This document shows, one piece after another, positions 42,136 through 53,500 of a stretch of 64,000 bases of DNA. Each line of letters starts with the position of its first letter. Position 1 is the first letter of the stretch. The notes beneath the pieces were generated by a model. That model ran no database searches and was not told where the DNA came from. It saw nothing but the letters and a program-made list of their open reading frames with translations. The DNA is from Pyropia yezoensis (taxonomy: Eukaryota; Rhodophyta; Bangiophyceae; Bangiales; Bangiaceae), in the NCBI GenBank assembly GCA_009829735.1, contig CM020618.1, positions 28,000,894 through 28,064,893 of the forward strand. The letters run 5' to 3'. A program made the translations under genes and the position numbers.

Positions 42136-42516
42136 CATGCGAATTGGGGCAGAAGGCGAGTCGAGCGAGCCCGCGGACAACGTGGAGGATCACGCCTTGT
42201 CCAAGTTGTACTCCCTTGCCGCTCGTCATCATCCGGGGGAAGTGGATATTGGAGCAGGCGACCTTGGGGCCTCGTTGTGCGGGCAAGTGTGGGACTACTA
42301 CAACGCACTGCCGTGCGCCAGCAACTTGAATGGGGGCAGAAGGCGAGTCGAGCGAGCCCGCGGACGACGTGGAGGATCACGCCTTGTCCATGTTGTACTC
42401 CCTTGCCGCTCGTCATCATCCGGGGGAAGTGGATATTGGAGCAGGCGACCTTGGGGCCTCGTTGTGCGGGCAAGTATGGGACTACTACATCGCACTGCCG
42501 TGCGCCAGCAACTTCA
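42136..42516 (+). repeat. Tandem duplication of a 63-codon block in copy C
   Basis: Two successive copies of about 189 bp starting gcagaaggcgagtcgagcg. Both read GAEGESSEPAD and end near YY(N/I)ALPCASN. In copy B the same place is a scrambled shorter version, as if the repeat collapsed in assembly. Confidence 0.7.
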
Positions 42517-45411
42517 TGTATCACCCTGCAACGTTTGCTTCAACCCACACGCACGTGTCTGCATTTAGGTCTCCTGCAACGAGACAGTTCTTATGCCACG
42601 TTTGTACGTCTGGTGGCACTGGTGTGTCGAAGGGTGAGGTCGCCCGGCTCTATCGCCTTTGTCGACGGGTCGAAGACGGGACCGGCTCGACTACCACACC
42701 CATCAAGGACGCCTCCAAGTCTCCAACCGCCATCAAAGAGGCTGTTCAGAAGGAGAAGAAGCGACTGTTGCAGTCGCTTGGATGGAAGGAGGCCGACGCT
42801 CCTACCTTGCTTGGACCACAGCGGATCATCTTCCGCAGTGGCATGGCGGAGGTCATGAAGGCAGTCGCCTCGGCACCAGTTATTAGTTGGGAGCGTGGAG
42901 GTGGTACCTGCAACTGTCGAGAGGGTGTGCGCTACGACCGACCCAACTGTGATACAAGCAAAGGCAGTGTGTCGCAAGGCGACCCAAGCAATGTCGAGAG
43001 TCCTCGGGTTGAAAGAGGTTGCCGCGATTGCACTCCTGAACTCGACGAGTGTGGCGAGCCGCGGCTTTCACCGATGCAGAACGACGACGTGTTACGTGAC
43101 TGCTTCGATGGGAAAGCGTACGAGGCCCAGAGAGCCGATGTGCTCAAAGTTCTCGGCATGGGTGCGCTCATGTTGGCCTTGGCTCTTTACTCGGACGGTA
43201 CTGTCGTGACCACCTCTGGAGGTAAGACATGCCACTTGCCACCTTTGGCGACCATTGGGCTCATTCTGGAGTATGTGGCGCCACAGCTTCGTCAGCGTTG
43301 CGTTGATACGTATGTGCGTCGCCTTGTATTGTGGAGGTGTTGCATCGACTTGCATTTTGTTGTATCTTGTTGTGTTGCACGATGTGTACCGTACTGACAT
43401 CGTGTCCGCATATTTGGTCACCACCATGCCTTTCCACAGGTGTGTCTGCTTACCCGATAAGAATGAGGATTATGAACTTGTAGTCGCGTGTGCCTGTTTG
43501 GGTGACTGTGGCATATGTTCCACAGGTGTGGGCAGACTTCCAGAAGTGCTCGGCATCCAACGCCGCTGCAGCGCGTGCGCAGGTGTTGCAGCACACGCTC
43601 AACCTGGCCTTTGGCGACCTTGTGCGTGCGAGTCACTTCGGCGTTGCAGTTACCATGCTGGACGGTACGCAAGGCATTGTATCGCCTCGCGTCGTACTGT
43701 ATGTCAGTGATCAGCTTGAGGAACGAGACATTGTGCGTCTGAAGAGGCACGGTACGGCCTTCAGCTGTACACCTTGTATGGCTCCTTTAAGCAGCTGTGG
43801 TCGTCGGCCGAGTGTGCCACACAAGCAGCGCAACGTGTTGAAGATGGTGGGCGACCATCTCAAGGGAGCTCGAATGAGAGGGTCCTATGGTGCGGATGTC
43901 GTGATTGATGCAGTGGAGATGAAGTATAGTATCCACTGTATCGTACCTGCACTGGCAGCTTGGGCGGGTCTGGGCTCCGGGTGTCTTCTGCTCTACAAAA
44001 TATTCGGATTCGACCGCCTGCATGTACGTTTACCATTTCGTTTATGTTTGTGTGGGTAGTGTGCTGTTGCTGACTGTATGTCGCTGCATGTCGCTGTCTT
44101 CCGTACGAGGTAACTGTGTATGTTTGTTATTCCCTGTATGTTCTTGCCACTTGATAATCATGTACGTGACGAGACAGACGTCCCACCGCAATGCACTCTC
44201 TGTTATGGCCTGGTCGTTTCGTTCGCCAGGTGATCGATCTTGGTATCTGTCGGGATCTGACAAAGGGCGTGTACAACTACGCGAAGGCGACTGCGCGACA
44301 GGGACTTCTCCTCCATGGGACAGACACCGAGTCGATACGTCACGCTAACAAGCGGTTCCGCTTCGCGTGCCGCACCCATCACGTCCCCTCTGTGGCCCCC
44401 GGCTACTTCATTAAGCCGGGTGTGTTGCAAGCCACGCTGAAAGGAAAGGAGCACCGCGACGCTGTGCATTTCCTGCCTTTTGCGGTTTCAGGCTTGTTTG
44501 GGCGAGGTGCGCCCGGTCGTCGATTCCATGGGATATTGACATGGAGCATCTGTGAGCTGGCAGCGCTGCTCAGGGACTTCTTCGATCCGCGGGCGAAGAC
44601 GTGGCGCGATGCCAAGGACCTGTGCGAGCGGTTTTCAGATTGGGTTGAGAATGACTTCCACGAGCTGTTTGGCGAGACCAACACGAGCAAGGTGCATCGC
44701 ACTGTATCTCATCTCAAAGATGAGTTCTTGTTGCGCGCGAGTGTGATTGGCGGCAACACAGGCGCAAACGAGGCGCTGCATAAGTACGTGAAGCGGGCCT
44801 TCCAGCTCACCAACAAGAACCGCGGACATGCAGCGCTACAGATGGTGTTCGCTGAGCAGATATTGACCCTCATCTCGCCTTTGGAGGCGGAGCAGAAAGC
44901 AGTCAGGCGGGAGGGCAACCGGCGCAGGCGGGTAAGGACACGCGGCAGGCCGTGCTCAGCTGGTGACCTCGCGGTTGACCTAAGCCTGCCTAAGCTCTGC
45001 GACGCATTGCAATGTGATGCATCTGACTGTGTCGTCTTGCAGTCCGGTGTGTGGCTCTCGGAGGAGGTGCCGCGAAAGGCGGACGGACGTCGGTCGACTT
45101 TATGGGCGACAGCCAATCTCAAGGGCCGTCCTTGGTTTGACTGGGTGAACTACCGGGCGTACGACGGCTCGGAGCGATACGGACGAGCCCGTGTCTTGGT
45201 AGTGAGCCTGAACGGGTCGGTCCGCAGAACTGTGGTCGTCGAGCGCGCAGAAGCAACAACTGCAGTACCGGACTGCCCTTTTTCTGCCTATGGGTGCACC
45301 CGGCTGCGTTGGGTCCATCAGCAGGGTTGTACTGAGGCAGACCTTGAAGCCATTGATTTGAGTGCCATTACGAAGGTGCTCTGTGTTGAGCTCGACTGGG
45401 ACGATTGGGTG

Positions 45412-45416
45412 ACGCG
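45412..45416. repeat. Target-site duplication, left (ACGCG)
   Basis: ACGCG directly before the LTR. The same five bases follow the other LTR at 50436-50440. Confidence 0.9.
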
Positions 45417-45884
45417 TGTGGCAAAAACCACTCGCACACACAGTACCCAAGTTGGGGCGGTGTGCGAGGGCTGCCTCCCGTGTCGGGGGAACCGGAAGAA
45501 GTGCAAGTCGCACACACTCTATCCCTGTTGTGGGGCAATCCCCCCACGGACAAACAAGAAGATGGTGTGTGGTCCAACAGTTTCTTGGTCGGGACGGGGA
45601 CGCAGGGCCAAGCCCCGCTGTCCCTCCCCTTATCCCCCCAGGGTCCACTCAGAATCTCGCCACTCAGAATCTCCCACCCCAGCACCTGCCCACCGGGCCA
45701 CACGAAAATTCAAGACGATAAATGCAGAAAACCCTCAAATCCAAGTTGGATTTACTACTAAGCTAACTATCCCGAACTTAGGGAATATGGACCCAAATGC
45801 AGGGGGAGGAACGGATCAGGCTAGTGGCCTGCCGCCCCTTGCATGGCACGTGTTGCCCCCTACCTGGGGGTCAATACTGCCACA
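45417..45884 (-). repeat. 3' LTR (468 bp)
   Basis: Downstream LTR of the minus-strand element. By eye it matches the other LTR with no obvious differences, which suggests a fairly recent insertion. Confidence 0.9.
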
Positions 45885-45897
45885 CTCCCCTCTCCTC
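45885..45897 (-). promoter_or_regulatory. Polypurine tract
   Basis: GAGGAGAGGGGAG on the minus strand, directly upstream of the 3' LTR, where plus-strand DNA priming occurs in LTR elements. Confidence 0.75.
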
Positions 45898-46226
45898 AGT
45901 TCCGACCGACCCGGTCGGCCCTGTGAGGGGGTGCGTAAACGCACGTCTCGGCGTTGGGGGGGGACGCGACTTGCTGTCCCCCATCGAGTACGTAACGCGG
46001 ATGTGGAGGCGGTCACGTTGACCGCCCCTCTCCTCAAGCTTGCCCACTCGGCAGCTTGCTCTCCTCGGTTCACACTTCACCATCACCACCACCTCCCCTT
46101 CACCTTCCACTGGGCCGCCCCACGCTGGGGAGGCCACCCGTATACCCACGATCCGAGTCCCTCTCAACTCGAGGCGGGTCTCGTGCTGCGATAGCCAGAG
46201 CGTCTCTCCCCAACTTGGGGAGAGCC

Positions 46227-48170
46227 ATGGCGACCCCGGGAGTGGAGACGGACTCTCTAGATGAGCGTATGGAGGACACCAGCTACGGTGCAGCACCCGC
46301 CGGGACTTCCGGCGGGGGCTCCGCGATCGCTCCGGGGGGTGGGACTCCCGCGTCACCCGGCTTTGGGTTGACGGCAGGATCTCCCCCGGAGGCGGGACAA
46401 GTTGTCCCGCGTGAGGCCTTGGGGCGGTGGTTTTACCCCGCTTGGCCTCTGTATGAGGAGGGGTTGACTGTTCTTCGCTGTGGCCGACTCGGCGCAGCGA
46501 TGGGTCGGGTATGGGACCGCCTACGGGAGAAGTATCCCCGTAGGGTCGGGTTCCCTGCCGGCTTCAGGACGGACCAGTTTGCCTTCCTGGACGACGAGGA
46601 GGTCGAGGACGTGCAGCGGGCCAAGGCCATGGTGGACCGCGGGGGAACTATCCCGGGTCCCGGCGACTTGCCGACCTTCACTTGGGACGCGGTGGCAACT
46701 CGCCCCCCGTACCTTCACGAGGCCGATCCGCACACTCATCACTTTGATGTGCGGATGGAGAAGGACTTCCGGCGAGGTCCCTACTTGGTGACCTCGGCTC
46801 AACTTGAGTTTCCTCAGCAGTCTGCTGCCAGTAAGGAGCAATACTACCCGAAGAAGCCCGAGTGGTGGCCTCAAGTTGAGGTCCCCTACGGGTTCCCGGC
46901 ATTGTTGCCACGGTTGCTTGACCACTTCGGCTCCGTCATGTTGACGGCTGGCCCTGATCATCTGGTGTGGGCCATGTTGGCCACCCAGTGGCTCCTCGAG
47001 GTCATGTCGACCTGGGTGTCATGTGTTCAGCGGCGGGGGATGCTCTGGCATCTCCCCCTCCGGCTCATCCAGGGTTTGGAACAGCTCACCCCTCAGCTAG
47101 TTGCTGAGGGGCGCTCGTCAGGACAACTCACTCTACTTGAGGAGATGCTCCGCCTCCACAAGTTTATCGAGTGGGAGAGCATTGAGCACAAGTTGCGCCG
47201 CCCCACTCGGGGGCCCAAGGACGATGGCGCACTTCGCCAGTTCGTGTGGGTCGCTCGTGAACTTCACGACGGCCGTGTGGTCCTACGAGAGGGGTTGGGC
47301 ATCGGGGACTACCCGTATGCCCCGGGGGTGGATCGTCACACTGCGCCACCCCCGGACAAGCCCATAGTTATGGCTGTGCCCTCATATGATGACCATATGA
47401 CTCAACCTACTGCGGGGGCCCCAAGTCGGGGTCGCAGTTACACCCGGGTACCGCCACCTCGGCGGGCCCCTCCGCTTCCTCCTGTTCCTTTCCAACTTCA
47501 CGGGAACATCCCGATCAGCGTGGCCGTGGAGTCTTCCACCCCGGTGTCCCCCAACTTGGGGGCCACCCTCCTGACGGTATACCCCAAGTTGGTGTTGCCG
47601 CCCACGCCTCTAACCTCAGAGATGATGATCACCACGTTGGTGCGCACCATTTCCTGGTTGGCCGCGTCGACCGCAACCCTACAGAGTTCCGAGACTCCTC
47701 AACTTGAGGAGCGCGTTCGTACTGCAGTGGCGACCGCGAGTTGCGAGTCGGTGGCGGAGTTTATGACAGCCGAGTTGGCTCGCATTGGGGCTATTATGCC
47801 CCAGCCAGCCCCACTTGGGCGTGGCAAACGTCGCGCGAGCCGGGCATACTCGCCTCCTCGCCGTCGTCGCCGACACTCGCGGCGCTCTCCTTCCGTATCG
47901 GAAGACGAGTTGTCTTACTCCGTTTCGGAGTCCTCTACCCCGTCGGAGACGGAGTCTGTCCAGCGTCTGCGTCGCAAACTTGCGCGCAAGACCAGGCAGA
48001 AGAGTGGCCACGGTCGGCGCCACTTGCGCGACCGTGAGGGACGCGACGGTTCCGACTTGGAGCCGCCGCCCCCTCCAACAAGTGGAGACCGTTATCGGCG
48101 TGGGTCTCGCCGCTCGCCTCCACGTGAGGGCGAGGGCCGTGGAGTGGGAGAGTCTAGCATGCGTGCCTAG
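46227..48170 (+). CDS. Antisense ORF of the LTR retroelement, unknown function
   Basis: An intact 647-codon frame on the strand opposite pol, between pol and the 3' LTR. The ATG at 46227 is preferred because the upstream in-frame sequence (open to 46056) is Pro/Ser filler and the ATG context is good. Residues about 1-60 are Gly/Ala/Pro-rich. About 65-400 is globular-looking with many Trp/Tyr/Leu (GRWFYPAWPLYEEG, KKPEWWPQVEVPYGFPALLP, MLWHLPLRLIQGLEQL). About 400-500 is Pro-rich, and about 540-647 is an Arg/Ser-rich tail (RRRRRHSRRSPS) resembling nucleic-acid-binding tails. No enzyme motif or zinc knuckle is seen. Plant Tat/Ogre-type elements are known to carry extra, sometimes antisense, ORFs in this position; a captured host gene or a capsid-like protein are alternatives. 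Many short hairpins lie within the coding sequence, including at its stop codon. Confidence 0.62.
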   Translation: MATPGVETDSLDERMEDTSYGAAPAGTSGGGSAIAPGGGTPASPGFGLTAGSPPEAGQVVPREALGRWFYPAWPLYEEGLTVLRCGRLGAAMGRVWDRLREKYPRRVGFPAGFRTDQFAFLDDEEVEDVQRAKAMVDRGGTIPGPGDLPTFTWDAVATRPPYLHEADPHTHHFDVRMEKDFRRGPYLVTSAQLEFPQQSAASKEQYYPKKPEWWPQVEVPYGFPALLPRLLDHFGSVMLTAGPDHLVWAMLATQWLLEVMSTWVSCVQRRGMLWHLPLRLIQGLEQLTPQLVAEGRSSGQLTLLEEMLRLHKFIEWESIEHKLRRPTRGPKDDGALRQFVWVARELHDGRVVLREGLGIGDYPYAPGVDRHTAPPPDKPIVMAVPSYDDHMTQPTAGAPSRGRSYTRVPPPRRAPPLPPVPFQLHGNIPISVAVESSTPVSPNLGATLLTVYPKLVLPPTPLTSEMMITTLVRTISWLAASTATLQSSETPQLEERVRTAVATASCESVAEFMTAELARIGAIMPQPAPLGRGKRRASRAYSPPRRRRRHSRRSPSVSEDELSYSVSESSTPSETESVQRLRRKLARKTRQKSGHGRRHLRDREGRDGSDLEPPPPPTSGDRYRRGSRRSPPREGEGRGVGESSMRA

Positions 48171-48281
48171 TTGGCAGCTGCCTTTGTTGTGAGAGTGTGA
48201 GGATTAGGGCTGTAGTTAAAAGCCACTCTGCGTACCACTTCGACTTGAAGCACTCTCTTGGCACTGTTGCTCGGCCTTCCC

Positions 48282-49277
48282 TCACGTTGAGGGAGGGCTG
48301 TTAGGGTCTATCTCATTCCGGACACAGTACGCCCGGACCTTCTCAGCGGGAAGGTCCTCCACATACTCCCACGTATCATCCTTGGCTTCGTAGCCAAACC
48401 AACGCACCCTCAACATGAGGCGGTCAGTATCCTCATCCCAGCCGTGGTCGATGAACTTGTCGAACACGTACTCCTGCGGGCCCTGTTTGGCTGCAGGCAG
48501 CGAGGGCAGGCGCCACGTTTTCAAAGCACGCGCCCAAGCTGGGTCGCCTGCAGGCGGTGGTGCAACTTTGACCACGTCCTGTCCGTTCACTGTGCGGACC
48601 CCATCGTCACTTTCGATGGTGAAGCGCCGCCCATCAGTACGAAGGACCTGGTACGGCCCCTTCGTCTGGAACACCAACTTACCCCCAGTTGGGGTGTGTG
48701 AGTGGACCAATACCCAGTCACCCTGCTCGGGGACATGCTTGGCGTTGCGCACCTTTTTGTCAAAGGTACGCTTGTAGCGCTTTTGTGCTTTGTCCATCTC
48801 AGCCCTGACTTTAGGGATGAGGTTTTCAAGCCTAGCAGCGAACTCCGCCTTACTCTCAGTAGGAGTGGGCGTACTGCCACCATCCTCCCTAGTTGGGAGC
48901 GGCCGCCGCACGGCAATAGACCGCACGCGACGGGGGGTCACAAAAGCGAGGGGTACTTCCCCGGTAGATGAGTGAACCTGCGAATTGTAGGCAGTGGTAA
49001 GAATAGAAATGTATTGGTCCCACGTTTTCACATGCTCACTCACATAGTGGCGCAGCTGCCTAACAATAGTTTTGTTGAAGCGCTCCTTGACGAGGGCCCT
49101 TGAACGGGGCCCTCCCCTATACGGTTGTTGGCGTATAGGGGGTACACCGGGTTTCAACTCGATCCGGTGTTGGGTGGCTCTCATGAGTCCCAATTGACCA
49201 TCCCACAACTTGTGATATTGGTCCAAGAGGCGTTCAACTTGAACCCTCAACCTGGGTGGAACACCCTCCATGTTCAC
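48282..49277 (-). pseudogene. Internally deleted pol: RT start fused to integrase C-terminus and chromodomain
   Basis: A 331-codon frame (first ATG at 49271). The first 50 residues (LLDQYHKLWDGQLG, HRIELKPGVPPIRQQPYR) match the segment just before the reverse-transcriptase core of Ty3/gypsy pol. After SRALVK the text jumps directly to ERFNKTIVRQLRHYVSEH and AYNSQVHSSTGEVPLAF, the end of the integrase catalytic region. A basic linker and GDWVLVHSHTP follow, and the last 60 residues (LMLRVRWFGYEAKDDTWEY) form a chromodomain, which in chromoviruses guides integration to marked chromatin. The catalytic reverse transcriptase, RNase H and most of the integrase core are missing, yet the joint is in frame and the rest is open, so a DNA/chromatin-binding remnant protein is conceivable. 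Confidence 0.8.
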
Positions 49278-49950
49278 ATGGGGACGAGGAGAGGCGGCCG
49301 ACTTGGCTTGGTGCTTCTCCTTTCCGGACCTCGGGTCGCTACTCGCGGCCGCGTTGAGGGTGGCCGCTACTACCGGTCCCTCATGTTGGTCGATATAGCC
49401 GAACTTGGCTCCCGATCAAAGATACTTTCTTTGAGGGTGGCGGGGGTAGCAACTTGCTACGACCCCTGTCACAGGCTCGAGCCCATCACCGACGAGTGAA
49501 GGTCCGCCGTCTTCCACCCGCCTAGTTGGCGACGGCTCTATGCCGAAGTTGAATCCAACCCGAGTGGATCTCGCGGGGACAGTCCTCTCACCTTGGGACG
49601 TTCCCTTTGAGTGTACCACCCGGTGGCCGAAGTGCGAACCACCGGTCCGAGAAAGACCCTCAGGGTGAACACCCGACTGGGTCGGGGTGGCATACCGCCC
49701 GCACCGATACCCACGGCCCTGCTGGCTGGAGTGCCTCTAGCACCTCCGCGACCCCAGGTACACCCTGTGTCTGGCCAGTATTCAAAGGCGCCGGGGTAAA
49801 GTCGTCACCGGAGAGTTTCCCGAACGTCGGGAGGTCCGATCCAGCCGTGTTGGCTAACGATCCACACGACACAGTCCAAGACCACCGTTCCTCTGAGACA
49901 GAGGGCCCCCTACACCCGGGTGCACCCGGAGGTAAAGTTTACCTCTGTCC

Positions 49951-49965
49951 CCTGCTGCTCCACCA
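49951..49965 (-). promoter_or_regulatory. Primer-binding site
   Basis: TGGTGGAGCAGCAGG on the minus strand, beginning two bases after the 5' LTR. The leading TGG would pair with a tRNA CCA end. The same sequence follows the LTR at 23065. The tRNA was not identified. Confidence 0.6.
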
Positions 49966-49967
49966 AA

Positions 49968-50435
49968 TGTGGCAAAAACCACTCGCACACACAGTACCCA
50001 AGTTGGGGCGGTGTGCGAGGGCTGCCTCCCGTGTCGGGGGAACCGGAAGAAGTGCAAGTCGCACACACTCTATCCCTGTTGTGGGGCAATCCCCCCACGG
50101 ACAAACAAGAAGATGGTGTGTGGTCCAACAGTTTCTTGGTCGGGACGGGGACGCAGGGCCAAGCCCCGCTGTCCCTCCCCTTATCCCCCCAGGGTCCACT
50201 CAGAATCTCGCCACTCAGAATCTCCCACCCCAGCACCTGCCCACCGGGCCACACGAAAATTCAAGACGATAAATGCAGAAAACCCTCAAATCCAAGTTGG
50301 ATTTACTACTAAGCTAACTATCCCGAACTTAGGGAATATGGACCCAAATGCAGGGGGAGGAACGGATCAGGCTAGTGGCCTGCCGCCCCTTGCATGGCAC
50401 GTGTTGCCCCCTACCTGGGGGTCAATACTGCCACA
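49968..50435 (-). repeat. 5' LTR (468 bp)
   Basis: Upstream LTR of the minus-strand element, TGTGGCA...TGCCACA, flanked by ACGCG. Confidence 0.9.
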
Positions 50436-50440
50436 ACGCG
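50436..50440. repeat. Target-site duplication, right (ACGCG)
   Basis: Matches 45412-45416 exactly. The transposase reading frame resumes right after it. Confidence 0.9.
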
Positions 50441-50531
50441 GAACGGCCTCATCGACTTTCCGACAACGCACCCGATCGATGCAAGTGACCCCCACCAGCG
50501 ACGCTTCTTCGTCAACGCATTTGCTTCTTAG

Positions 50532-53500
50532 GCTGCTTTGTCGTACGTGTCTTTCAATGTCTTGCTCTGCAATCCTCTGTATACACATAGCATTTGATTG
50601 CAACTCGGGAATACTGCCATTCTGTCTTTTCCATACTGTCATTGTGCGCCTCGGGAGTGTGTTCTCTGGTGCTTGCTTGTATGGCCATGTATCGACTTGA
50701 ATGTTTCTCTCTGAAGCGACTATGAGCGATTGTGCCAAGTGGAAGTGTGTATGTTGAGCGTCTTGCTCCCGTCGTCATTTTTCCTCACGTTCCATGAGCT
50801 GATTTGATGAATCAAGGGCCCTTCTTGGAAAGGGGGTCGACATGGGCAAGTGAGAGGGCTGGAGGGCGGGTAGGACGGTGGGTCGGACAGCATCCGCAGC
50901 TGCGATTGACCATGATTTGAAGGGTCAGACAAAGATTCCGGGAAAGAGGGGTGGGGATGGCTCAGGACGTAGCGAGGAGAGGCCATCGAGTAGAATCTTC
51001 AATCATGGTCGGGTGAGCTCACAGGCTCTTGATCTCCGCGACTGCACCAAGTCGATAGTCCTCCGACTTGGGCAAAGAAACGACCGTATCCCTCACCAAG
51101 GATGATTCTCGGGAGGTGCATTGTGTGGGAATGTGAGAGGCGCGCGAGCCAGGAACCGGATCATCGCATATGGAGGGTCGTGGTGCGATTTGGGACACGC
51201 TGAGTCCAGAATCAGCTCACTGGCGTCGGTAGATGCGCAACTGAGCATGTTGAGGAGGGGGTGTCAAAAAGTAGCCTCCGTGAATGGAGGCTCGGGCGAG
51301 GCTGTGTGGTCAATCAGATGTCGTGAAACGTCCGGACCGCGCGATCGGAAGAATTGGTGGACTCTTCAGCGATGTATTTTAAACGAAGATGACACTGGCG
51401 GCCGGGCGCGTACGCGTGGAGAACGAAAGGTCGATGTTCCGTCGTCCGCGACTCGACCAGCTTGTCCGATGCGACTGTCGGAGTCGCGATGGCCAGTTTG
51501 TGAGGAGCGGTGATATGCATGAAGGATCTGTGTTGCAGCGCAATACAAGAAGATGCGGCGATACACAAGTCATGACATGTATTGCAGTGGTGCTCTTTTT
51601 TCATCAGTGGACGGTCTTCGCTTGATGTTGCAGTACGTTGCAGTAGAAACTTGTGAAATACAACGCCATGTAGTGTTTGTGATTGAGTTGCATGTGGTTC
51701 CGGTCGCCGACGATGCACTACTGGGAGTTGTGCAGTGTACAGTACCGGTCGAGACCTTCTGTGCAGTAGCCAGTCAGGTTCAAATGTCGACCATTCTCGA
51801 TGAGATCCTCGGTCTCTGTGTACTGCATGCGATGCACGACATACCACTTTGTAGAGGAGACTAAGGGGAGTCAGATGGTACTTTTTATTTTTTGAGTGCT
51901 CTTGTTCTCTCTGAGCTATGAGGAGAGAAGGCAAAAGTACTGTCAGTTATCTGCTCACTAATGTCGACCACGTCTTGGGGCCAATGGGGGTGCCCGATCT
52001 GCTCACCGTCGCGGGCTGCGGTGCGCTGCAAGCGAATCATTGTTGCTGAGTGCGGCCCGACCATTCCTTTGATGCCACAAGGGTGCCGTATGTCTCCGGG
52101 AATAATACACTCCGTAGCAGAGAAAAGAGCACAGCAAAAAGAGAGTTGAGACTCACGCCTTGATGCATGACAAGAAAAACAACGGCGTCTATGTGTATCC
52201 ATTGCTGGAAGGCCTGATGCCCAGGCCATGTGTGCTTCTCTTGTTCTTGACTTGGAAGTAGCAGACGAAAAGAACAGAAAATACTGCGGTCACGACTCTG
52301 CCTCCTCGGGGCCTCCAGGAGACCCTGGTGTGGTCAACATTTTGGGCAGTGGTCGACATTGCAAACAGGACAGCTATCCGAGACTATCTGTATATTCTGT
52401 ACCAGGGTGCCGGCAGGTGAACGAAATGCACGCCCACAACCTGCCATGACAAGCAGTGGCAACCAATGAAACTATACGCTGCTCCAATTCATTACCATGC
52501 GAGTGTCTAGATACCTTCCGAAGTGAATATGGCTGTGGCTGTCCCGGTGGCGGATCGCAACCCGCGATTCGGCAGGGAGCTGTAAGCAGCGTGCCAGGTC
52601 GCGCCGGTGCCAACCAGGCCCGCTTCTCGGCTGGGCTTGCAGGGCCCAAGCCCAGATGGGGTCCGACTGCCCCTAGCCGGCCAGAAATCGTGGAGAAGAA
52701 GCCGCGTCCGCGGACAACGTAAATTGCTTGGCGTATTAAAGTAACCCCTACTCTAATCGACAAACGGCTGGGAAAGGCTCTGTATTAGACCGGAGTCGGG
52801 GTCCTGAGGCGTCTCACGTTTTGGTCTTGTGGGCGTACCGCGACAGCCAATGGCAGAGAAGAGCTCGGGCAGTTGAGGAGCGTTGCTCACGAGGGACCTC
52901 GTGTGAGTCTGGGGCACTGGGGACAGTGACAGAAAGGACTTAGAGCGACCCGCTCGGTCGTTTCTGAAGGCAGTCCTGCAGCTTGAGGAGACGCAAGGGA
53001 CCAAGCAGGCCAGGGTCTTGATCTCGGCCGTAAAGGACCTCTTCGGCCCAGTGTCTGGCCGATCTGCCAGCCGATCAGTGGCGTGGTGGGGGACCGAATC
53101 TGTTTTGGCGCTGATCAGCCTGGTGGCCGCCTGCTGTGCCGGCGGCTCGCCGGGTGTGGAGGAGTGCCGTGGCTGTCTTGGTGGTCGGCTTGGTCGCGAC
53201 CTGTAGAAGCTTCGGCTTGGCTAGGACTGCCTGCTGTGCCGTCCTCTTGGACGGGGCATAGTACAGCCGCTGCTTTGTCTTATATCGTTCTTATGGGGCT
53301 GCGCTCCGTGCCGACGGCCGTTGGGGGGGGTAGAGACCCGCCCACATCCGCAGTCGGCCGGGCGGATCCGTGGATCCGCGGCGCCAAATTGCGGTGCAGC
53401 CCGCCAATACTGACCCTCACCAGGAAAGTACAACGACTGTATCATCGAGTGGTCGGCTCGTGTGGTCTGCGAACCCTGATTGATCTCGAGTCTGCACACA

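Follow-up and report, generated by a model that had tools for sequence, protein, structure and literature searches.

The stretch of DNA considered here, a window of 64,000 nucleotides (nt) from the red alga Pyropia yezoensis (assembly GCA_009829735.1, contig CM020618.1, positions 28,000,894 to 28,064,893), harbours at 45417-50435 a short copy of a Ty3/gypsy retrotransposon with long terminal repeats (LTRs), its pol on the minus strand, and it is this element that carries the array of small hairpins described below. In the sense of pol, the 5' LTR occupies 49968..50435 and the 3' LTR 45417..45884, both on the minus strand; they form a direct repeat with a spacing of 4551 and are identical across the 451 bp searched, their 468-bp extent being taken from alignment to a full-length copy of the same family (L009). 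The LTRs have TG...CA ends, and the window copy is flanked by a 5-bp target-site duplication, ACGCG, read from the sequence at 45412..45416 on the left and 50436-50440 on the right. In L009 the LTR starts lie 8910 bp apart, and Pfam places RVT_1, RT_RNaseH and Integrase_H2C2 in frame 1 of pol and rve in frame 2, so that reverse transcriptase, RNase H and integrase follow one another as in Ty3/gypsy elements. A stop codon separates these two frames; other copies have a single frame of 1380 amino acids, and a sister family likewise has one frame. At the integrase end, where the chromovirus subgroup has its chromodomain, a weak Chromo match (E=2.4e-4, 21.4 bits; 16.7 bits in the sister family) stays under the curated threshold of 25.1. 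Relative to L009, the window copy has lost gag and most of pol. It retains an integrase remnant, a 377-amino-acid open frame of the deleted pol at 48282..49415 on the minus strand (recognised by open frame, Pfam and alignment to L009), and an antisense open reading frame (ORF) at 46227..48170 on the plus strand, intact in the open-frame listing with 647 amino acids plus a stop. The element belongs to a large family: one of its 23-mers has 1226 matches at up to 3 mismatches, against 7 for a reversed control, and there are at least 104 integrase matches, with 99-100% identity among the matches listed.

An earlier note, made from the letters of this sequence, had claimed that short inverted repeats with unrelated arms enclose an almost constant 5-nt loop, NASTT (S = C or G), within 45737-49531. 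These hairpins exist, and the array is both real and stronger than that note claimed. In this interval a 5-nt NASTT loop sits in a perfect stem of 5 bp or longer at 15 places, and two further stems, of 6-7 bp, enclose ACGTT. They are concentrated in the element: on the plus strand, NASTT-loop stems of at least 5 bp occur in no 2-kb bin outside 44000-52000, and the other-strand reading (AASTN) adds a single one outside that range, in bin 22000. The notion of a constant loop stands, but the NASTT rule is too narrow, since ACGTT, ATGTT and AACAT occur as well and the loop is strand-symmetric to first order. The refined code used below is AASTT, S being fixed and no more than one of the other letters deviating, and a hairpin is a pair of perfect arms of at least 3 bp flanking such a core, unless another stem length is named. 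Under this definition the same interval has 41 hairpins, 31 of them with stems of at least 4 bp, and 100 dinucleotide shuffles average 1.1 and 0.24, with maxima of 6 and 1. The whole window element has 49 hairpins in 4551 bp (shuffles average 1.4), and L009, counted with one LTR, has 88 among its 231 code cores, against an average of 2.9 and a maximum of 7 in 100 shuffles.

The comparison of code loops with all other loops, which the earlier note had proposed, shows a strong excess. About 38% of the L009 code cores are stemmed (17/41 for exact AASTT, 71/190 for one deviation), against 2-4% beyond the code: 35/813 (4%) with two deviations, and about 2% with three (49/2101), with four (44/2147) and with a centre other than C or G (64/3594). 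Among loop lengths of 0-9 nt, enrichment is seen at odd lengths and at none of the even ones, and because only odd lengths are enriched we regard the unit as a palindrome centred on S. The cores themselves are dense, with 180 in 9.6 kb of the window family against 33-43 in 3.3 kb of other families. Outside the element the window has a slight excess of its own (10/606 cores with stems of at least 4 bp, against 0.64% for other loops, p=0.007; the L009 figure is 60/240). As the earlier note held, the array crosses the LTR, pol and the antisense ORF, and in full-length copies it extends through gag and the remaining pol. Hairpin density is 4-10 per kb alike in LTR, untranslated regions (UTRs), gag, pol and antisense ORF, and hairpins occur in every codon phase as well as in non-coding parts. 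We note that neighbouring hairpin centres in L009, under a first definition of the core, are separated by 27 nt or more, the one exception being a pair 13 nt apart, and distances of 27-38 nt are in excess; a search for periodicity left periods near 31 below the multiple-test threshold, and a 7-nt signal passed it in one of four settings. The idea that the array marks the insertion target site of the element was rejected, the flanks of the copies being generally free of hairpins when inspected by eye.

The individual hairpins of the window, written as arm/loop/arm, begin in the LTR with AAATCC/AAGTT/GGATTT (45737..45753, its second LTR copy at 50288-50304), followed by GGCGGTC/ACGTT/GACCGCC (46008..46026) and by CTCTCCCC/AACTT/GGGGAGAG (46204..46224), which stands immediately 5' of the antisense ORF start. 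Next come CCCGCCGG/GACTT/CCGGCGGG (46296..46316), GCGGGAC/AAGTT/GTCCCGC (46392..46410), CCGTC/ATGTT/GACGG (46933..46947), CCCCTCAGC/TAGTT/GCTGAGGGG (47089..47111), TGGCG/CACTT/CGCCA (47225..47239), TCGTG/AACTT/CACGA (47255..47269), CCCCC/AACTT/GGGGG (47548..47562), CTCCTC/AACTT/GAGGAG (47695..47711) and AAGAC/GAGTT/GTCTT (47902..47916). A hairpin, TGCC/TAGTT/GGCA (48164..48176), does contain the stop codon at 48168-48170 that ends the antisense ORF, and TCCCTC/ACGTT/GAGGGA (48278..48294) sits at the end of the integrase frame. ACCCC/CAGTT/GGGGT (48681..48695) and CTCCC/TAGTT/GGGAG (48885..48899) are followed by AACAA/TAGTT/TTGTT (49062..49076), within the conserved integrase motif NKTIV. Both TCAAAGA/TACTT/TCTTTGA (49416..49434) and GTAGC/AACTT/GCTAC (49446..49460) belong to a 58-bp segment, 49416-49473, that is unmatched in the long copy and of which these two code hairpins occupy over half. 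The remaining two are TCCCG/AACGT/CGGGA (49818..49832; TCCCG/ACGTT/CGGGA in the sense of pol), whose homologue in the long lineage, as compared through the short copy L018, is a stem CCCCG/CGGGG around TCGTC, and GAGGTA/AAGTT/TACCTC (49929..49945), which adjoins the 5' LTR.

The arms vary freely, as had been claimed: the 69 hairpins among the 169 AASTN/NASTT cores of L009 have 25 distinct inner trimers, and this excludes a fixed palindromic protein site. What the arms share is complementarity, offsets 3-6 from the centre pairing in 52-62% of these 169 cores against 27-34% expected from column composition. In the window family, shorter stems are richer in G+C, the inner three pairs having G+C fractions of 0.86, 0.80, 0.74 and 0.63 for stems of 3, 4, 5 and 6 or more bp (stems up to 4 bp against those of at least 5 bp, p=0.013), an order not seen in control hairpins with other loops. 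Local folding in the sense of pol gives a mean stem pairing probability of 0.72 in 58 hairpins against 0.38 in 68 controls, and in the antisense direction 0.77 against 0.35. In the sense of pol, AASTN cores are stemmed more often than NASTT cores (45/119 against 21/88, p=0.036); the LTR and 3' stretch of L009, with 1/5 against 2/4, were not pooled. The direction is the same in the gag-pol and antisense-ORF regions of both hairpin-bearing families, and this bias weakly favours the genomic strand being the one that is read.

Metagenome contigs encode a set of proteins, P0002-P0010, with 54-61% identity of the integrase in an alignment. A protein search with P0005 recovered the sister family (L062-L066), whose pol is 59% identical and whose LTR measures 539 bp. 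In L062, 25/167 cores are stemmed with at least 3 bp and 17/167 with at least 4 bp, against 0.6% for other loops (p=1e-14), and an element counted with one LTR has 30 hairpins against 2.8 in shuffles. Within pol, L009 has 35 hairpins and L062 has 12; of 32 centres mapped, 4 are shared, against 0.1 expected for random placement, and two of these four are simply conserved sequence. Between the families it is the class of hairpin that persists; its places are mostly different. At 27 loci of other families in the same genome (within L023-L052; these are loci, not a count of distinct families), 0/2289 cores have stems of at least 4 bp, and 29/2289 have stems of at least 3 bp, which is the background rate. 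Three 4.5-kb downstream stretches of hairpin-poor families gave one hairpin in 256 cores, and among viral contigs no relative was confirmed. As a separate observation, code hairpins of at least 4 bp in the 27 loci are rarer than predicted (0 against about 6 from the other-loop rate, p=0.004), and palindromes with 5-nt loops are altogether rarer there than those of other loop lengths; these loci are mutually related, and the shortage may be one event.

To the earlier note the palindromes might have been created around ASTT by insertion or gene conversion, and neither process finds support. We aligned the pol protein to the 27 loci of other families, 3 of an initial 30 loci having been dropped for nested copies of the window family. 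The gap fraction is 0.0045 at hairpin residues and 0.0082 elsewhere in pol, and the absence of any gap excess at homologous sites rules out ready-made palindromes inserted in the manner of miniature inverted-repeat transposable elements. Judged by this alignment, the hairpins arose by substitution relative to other families. Some were placed in conserved motifs through synonymous codon choice, as in NKTIV at L009 position 5823. Identity to other families is slightly lower at hairpin residues (0.40 against 0.47), so some hairpins altered the protein. Gene conversion, which should alter both arms together, fares no better: in 8.5 kb compared with an older lineage, coupled changes of both arms are absent for stems of at least 4 bp.

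This older copy is a single element in two pieces (L053 and L061), which diverge from L009 by 4.4% and 3.4% with almost no gaps, and its L053 part has intact frames and changes mainly at third positions. Relative to this lineage, the rate of change at hairpin positions is at most about half that outside them. Taking whole loops under the refined code, 23/1205 hairpin positions are changed against 296/7125 outside (p=6e-5), and at third codon positions 13/397 against 196/2328 (p=1.4e-4); under the first definition of the core, the figures are 11/815 against 317/7676 and, at third positions, 7/260 against 202/2465. Control hairpins with other loops, picked in the same way, are unconserved (100/2032 against 217/5643), as are cores without stems (44/858 against 273/6817), so neither the stem nor the core is conserved alone. 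Four lineages of the integrase region give 23/930 against 254/6274 (p=0.017), a rough value, as are all those that pool related copies, whose positions are not independent. The selection for structure that the earlier note suggested thus stands for synonymous sites against the older lineage, but some lineages do not show it. Young copies were rejected as a neutral control, their differences also favouring third positions and avoiding hairpins; not being neutral, they offer no way to tell selection apart from a mutational cold spot specific to the motif, against which the other-loop control speaks.

The earlier note had further proposed to look for compensatory stem changes in other copies. Two clear compensated pairs are found at sites shared with the sister family, but a global count shows no excess. 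One is at L009 4438, where G-C faces C-G in the sister family around the same loop; the other is at L009 5430, where A-T faces G-C and the loop passes from AAGTT to GACTT, each of which conforms to the code. Two more have one partner outside the code: one in the 5' region between the long and short lineages, where control loops also show one, and one at L062 4019 against L063 and L064. At sites where one family has a code loop and the other deviates in no more than two letters, double changes remain paired in 5/8 cases. Compensation is thus observed at single sites, lacking statistical support globally.

We suggest, as a tentative reading to which we would give somewhat less than even weight, that these are dispersed recognition hairpins for a loop-reading and probably element-encoded protein. 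One such protein would read the loops and, through the combined effect of many weak sites, recognise the nucleic acid of its own element, most likely genomic RNA to be packaged into virus-like particles. The stem would be a mere scaffold presenting the loop, its sequence free to follow coding need. A protein that reads the loop is proposed because the sites are many, weak, dispersed, equivalent, selected, seemingly indifferent to position and retained in a deleted derivative. By likeness to the arrays of RNA viruses, packaging of genomic RNA seems to us the best-fitting use. In single-stranded RNA viruses, dispersed packaging signals are multiple stem-loops that share a recognition motif for the coat protein while the rest varies (PMC6281560). 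The seaweed element resembles these, as described there, in its dispersed stem-loops with a shared motif, many in number and kept by selection, the conservation not being seen in every lineage. It differs in being a retrotransposon, in having dozens of perfect stems under a loop rule and in not favouring G-U pairs, and binding by a coat protein would be putative here. Ty1 and Ty3 are LTR retrotransposons like the seaweed element, and their Gag recognises genomic RNA; the Gag sites in that RNA are not precisely defined, and the accounts cited describe no dispersed constant-loop array for them (PMC4974528, PMC11381356). The choice of RNA by Gag is poorly defined in LTR retrotransposons, and the array bears on that question.

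A zinc-knuckle Gag would be the first candidate for the reader and the product of the antisense ORF the second. Gag comes first because its zinc knuckle reaches or exceeds the Pfam cut-off of 20.8 bits in the two families with hairpins (25.0 and 21.0 bits); in the single case tested, a Gag-like frame near a hairpin-poor locus has only a weak zf-CCHC_2 match. The code is common to families with 59% identical pol, and individual sites come and go. In its broader form, which we hold with similar reserve and would not yet call probable, the proposal is that a clade of mobile elements wrote a degenerate structural barcode, AASTT loops on free stems, throughout its own genome, to be read by a dedicated protein, with selection acting on site number more than on place. 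If true, such a barcode would be a form of retroelement self-recognition able to operate inside coding regions while leaving their sequence unfixed; if the mechanism is packaging, the array would be a variation on known dispersed packaging signals. With dozens of natural sites per copy under one loop code, dispersed recognition hairpins become directly testable, and the same genome offers a sister family with fewer sites, relatives without sites and a compact deleted derivative with the array. Among titles and abstract openings of the open-licence literature, we recognised no description of a retroelement with a constant-loop hairpin array.

A number of observations weigh against this proposal. 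Conservation falls short in several comparisons: six lineages under the first core definition give 7/148 against 145/1611 (p=0.09), the window copy has no clear deficit (9/540 against 51/2545), and excess conservation is absent both from the gag portion of the older copy (4/185 against 45/1683) and from the sister-family lineages (12/119 against 137/1857; 8/74 against 100/1392). Double changes are still paired in 10/32 cases against 33/104 in the control. The sister family lacks the G+C trade-off (0.67, 0.67, 0.72, 0.67; n=30), many stems have only 3-4 bp, and both strands fold equally well. Among cores with 3/4 pairs, G-T mismatches are no commoner than A-C (9 against 14 in L009, 9 against 9 in the sister family), and the missing G-T preference argues against a simple RNA helix formed by a single strand. 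The antisense ORF, gene of the second candidate, is present in hairpin-poor families too.

Several of these points would suit an action at the DNA level, which we consider unlikely but the best placed of the alternatives: an element or host DNA-binding protein would read AASTT where it lies in a palindrome or is extruded, on chromosomal or complementary DNA, for instance in anti-silencing or regulation. The core is nearly strand-symmetric, both strands fold equally, G-T is tolerated no better than A-C, and LTR and coding regions are covered alike. However, arbitrary arms cannot be read as duplex sequence, stems of 3-5 bp lack the length needed to extrude a cruciform, and the trade-off between length and G+C in the window family and the weak AASTN bias suit a folded single strand better. 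A comparable known system is the VANC anti-silencing motifs of Arabidopsis VANDAL elements, likewise element-specific and much repeated, and read there by an element-encoded protein; in the account cited, however, the VANC targets are short motifs in non-coding tandem repeats, whereas the seaweed hairpins have variable arms and are dispersed through coding regions (PMC10398659). The even spread of the hairpins over LTR, UTRs, gag, pol and antisense ORF is unlike the placing of VANC targets.

Less likely still, in our view, is that a host factor reads the loops (in RNA decay, modification or silencing) or that the hairpins tune the pairing of sense and antisense transcripts, the element using or tolerating them. 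The antisense ORF makes antisense transcripts plausible, and pairing by Watson-Crick rules only is expected if both strands must fold. Nonetheless, the 27 other-family loci of the same genome are devoid of code hairpins of at least 4 bp, and at least two hairpin-poor families possess an antisense ORF.

We find it rather improbable that the array is a mutational product, one arm being copied into its partner when reverse transcription switches template at AASTT. Such a process would yield arms that are arbitrary and perfectly complementary, as observed, many of the copies are recent by their near-identical integrase matches, and hairpins turn over between lineages. But hairpin positions change less, not more, against the older lineage, third codon positions included; stems of at least 4 bp show no coupled change of two arms there; hairpins have no gap excess against other families; and cores are denser in the window family, so that core and stem seem to arrive together. 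A last rival, that the array reflects chance, base composition, codon usage or some protein motif, might cite the frequency of cores in the element and the slight excess in the rest of the window, but it can be dismissed with near certainty: chance and composition are refuted by the shuffles and by the other-family loci as controls, and the hairpins occupy every codon phase as well as non-coding stretches.

The antisense ORF sits between pol and the 3' LTR and belongs to a stop-to-stop frame of 724 amino acids that is present in 12 of the 14 stretches L009-L022 and in the window copy; the exceptions are L015, whose longest frame is 459, and L021, a stretch that ends short of the region. It is thus intact and kept in most copies, as in antisense-ORF LTR retrotransposons, and its changes are biased to third codon positions. 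In the families tested, its product has no Pfam match, and an AlphaFold prediction made with three sequences has a mean predicted local distance difference test (pLDDT) score of 33 and is unusable. Grande, RIRE2 and Retand likewise have an antisense ORF without known domain, in the same position and orientation between pol and 3' LTR; the main text of the review cited does not mention hairpins in these plant elements, and the seaweed ORF occurs in hairpin-poor families also (PMC7264820). The sister-family ORF spans 581 codons stop to stop and is 30% identical to that of the window family over 124 residues; tblastn finds homologues in the sister family and in 2 of 3 tested stretches of hairpin-poor families. 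A tie between the hairpins and this ORF is therefore not supported, since hairpin-poor families carry it too. An antisense ORF after pol recurs across several Ty3/gypsy families of the genome with 25-30% identity over part of the length, its sites including window 46227-48170, L062:4908-6650, L067:799-2787 and L068.

We also note some features of the surroundings. The flanks of L009 and L015 look nested, in that they match the interior of further members of the family, and the joint of L015 adjoins the hairpin at L009 position 7660. In the window, a 187-bp unit is tandemly duplicated at 42141-42514 with 97% identity, and a long open frame at 44170-45416, with no Pfam match, reaches the insertion point of the element and continues into its LTR.

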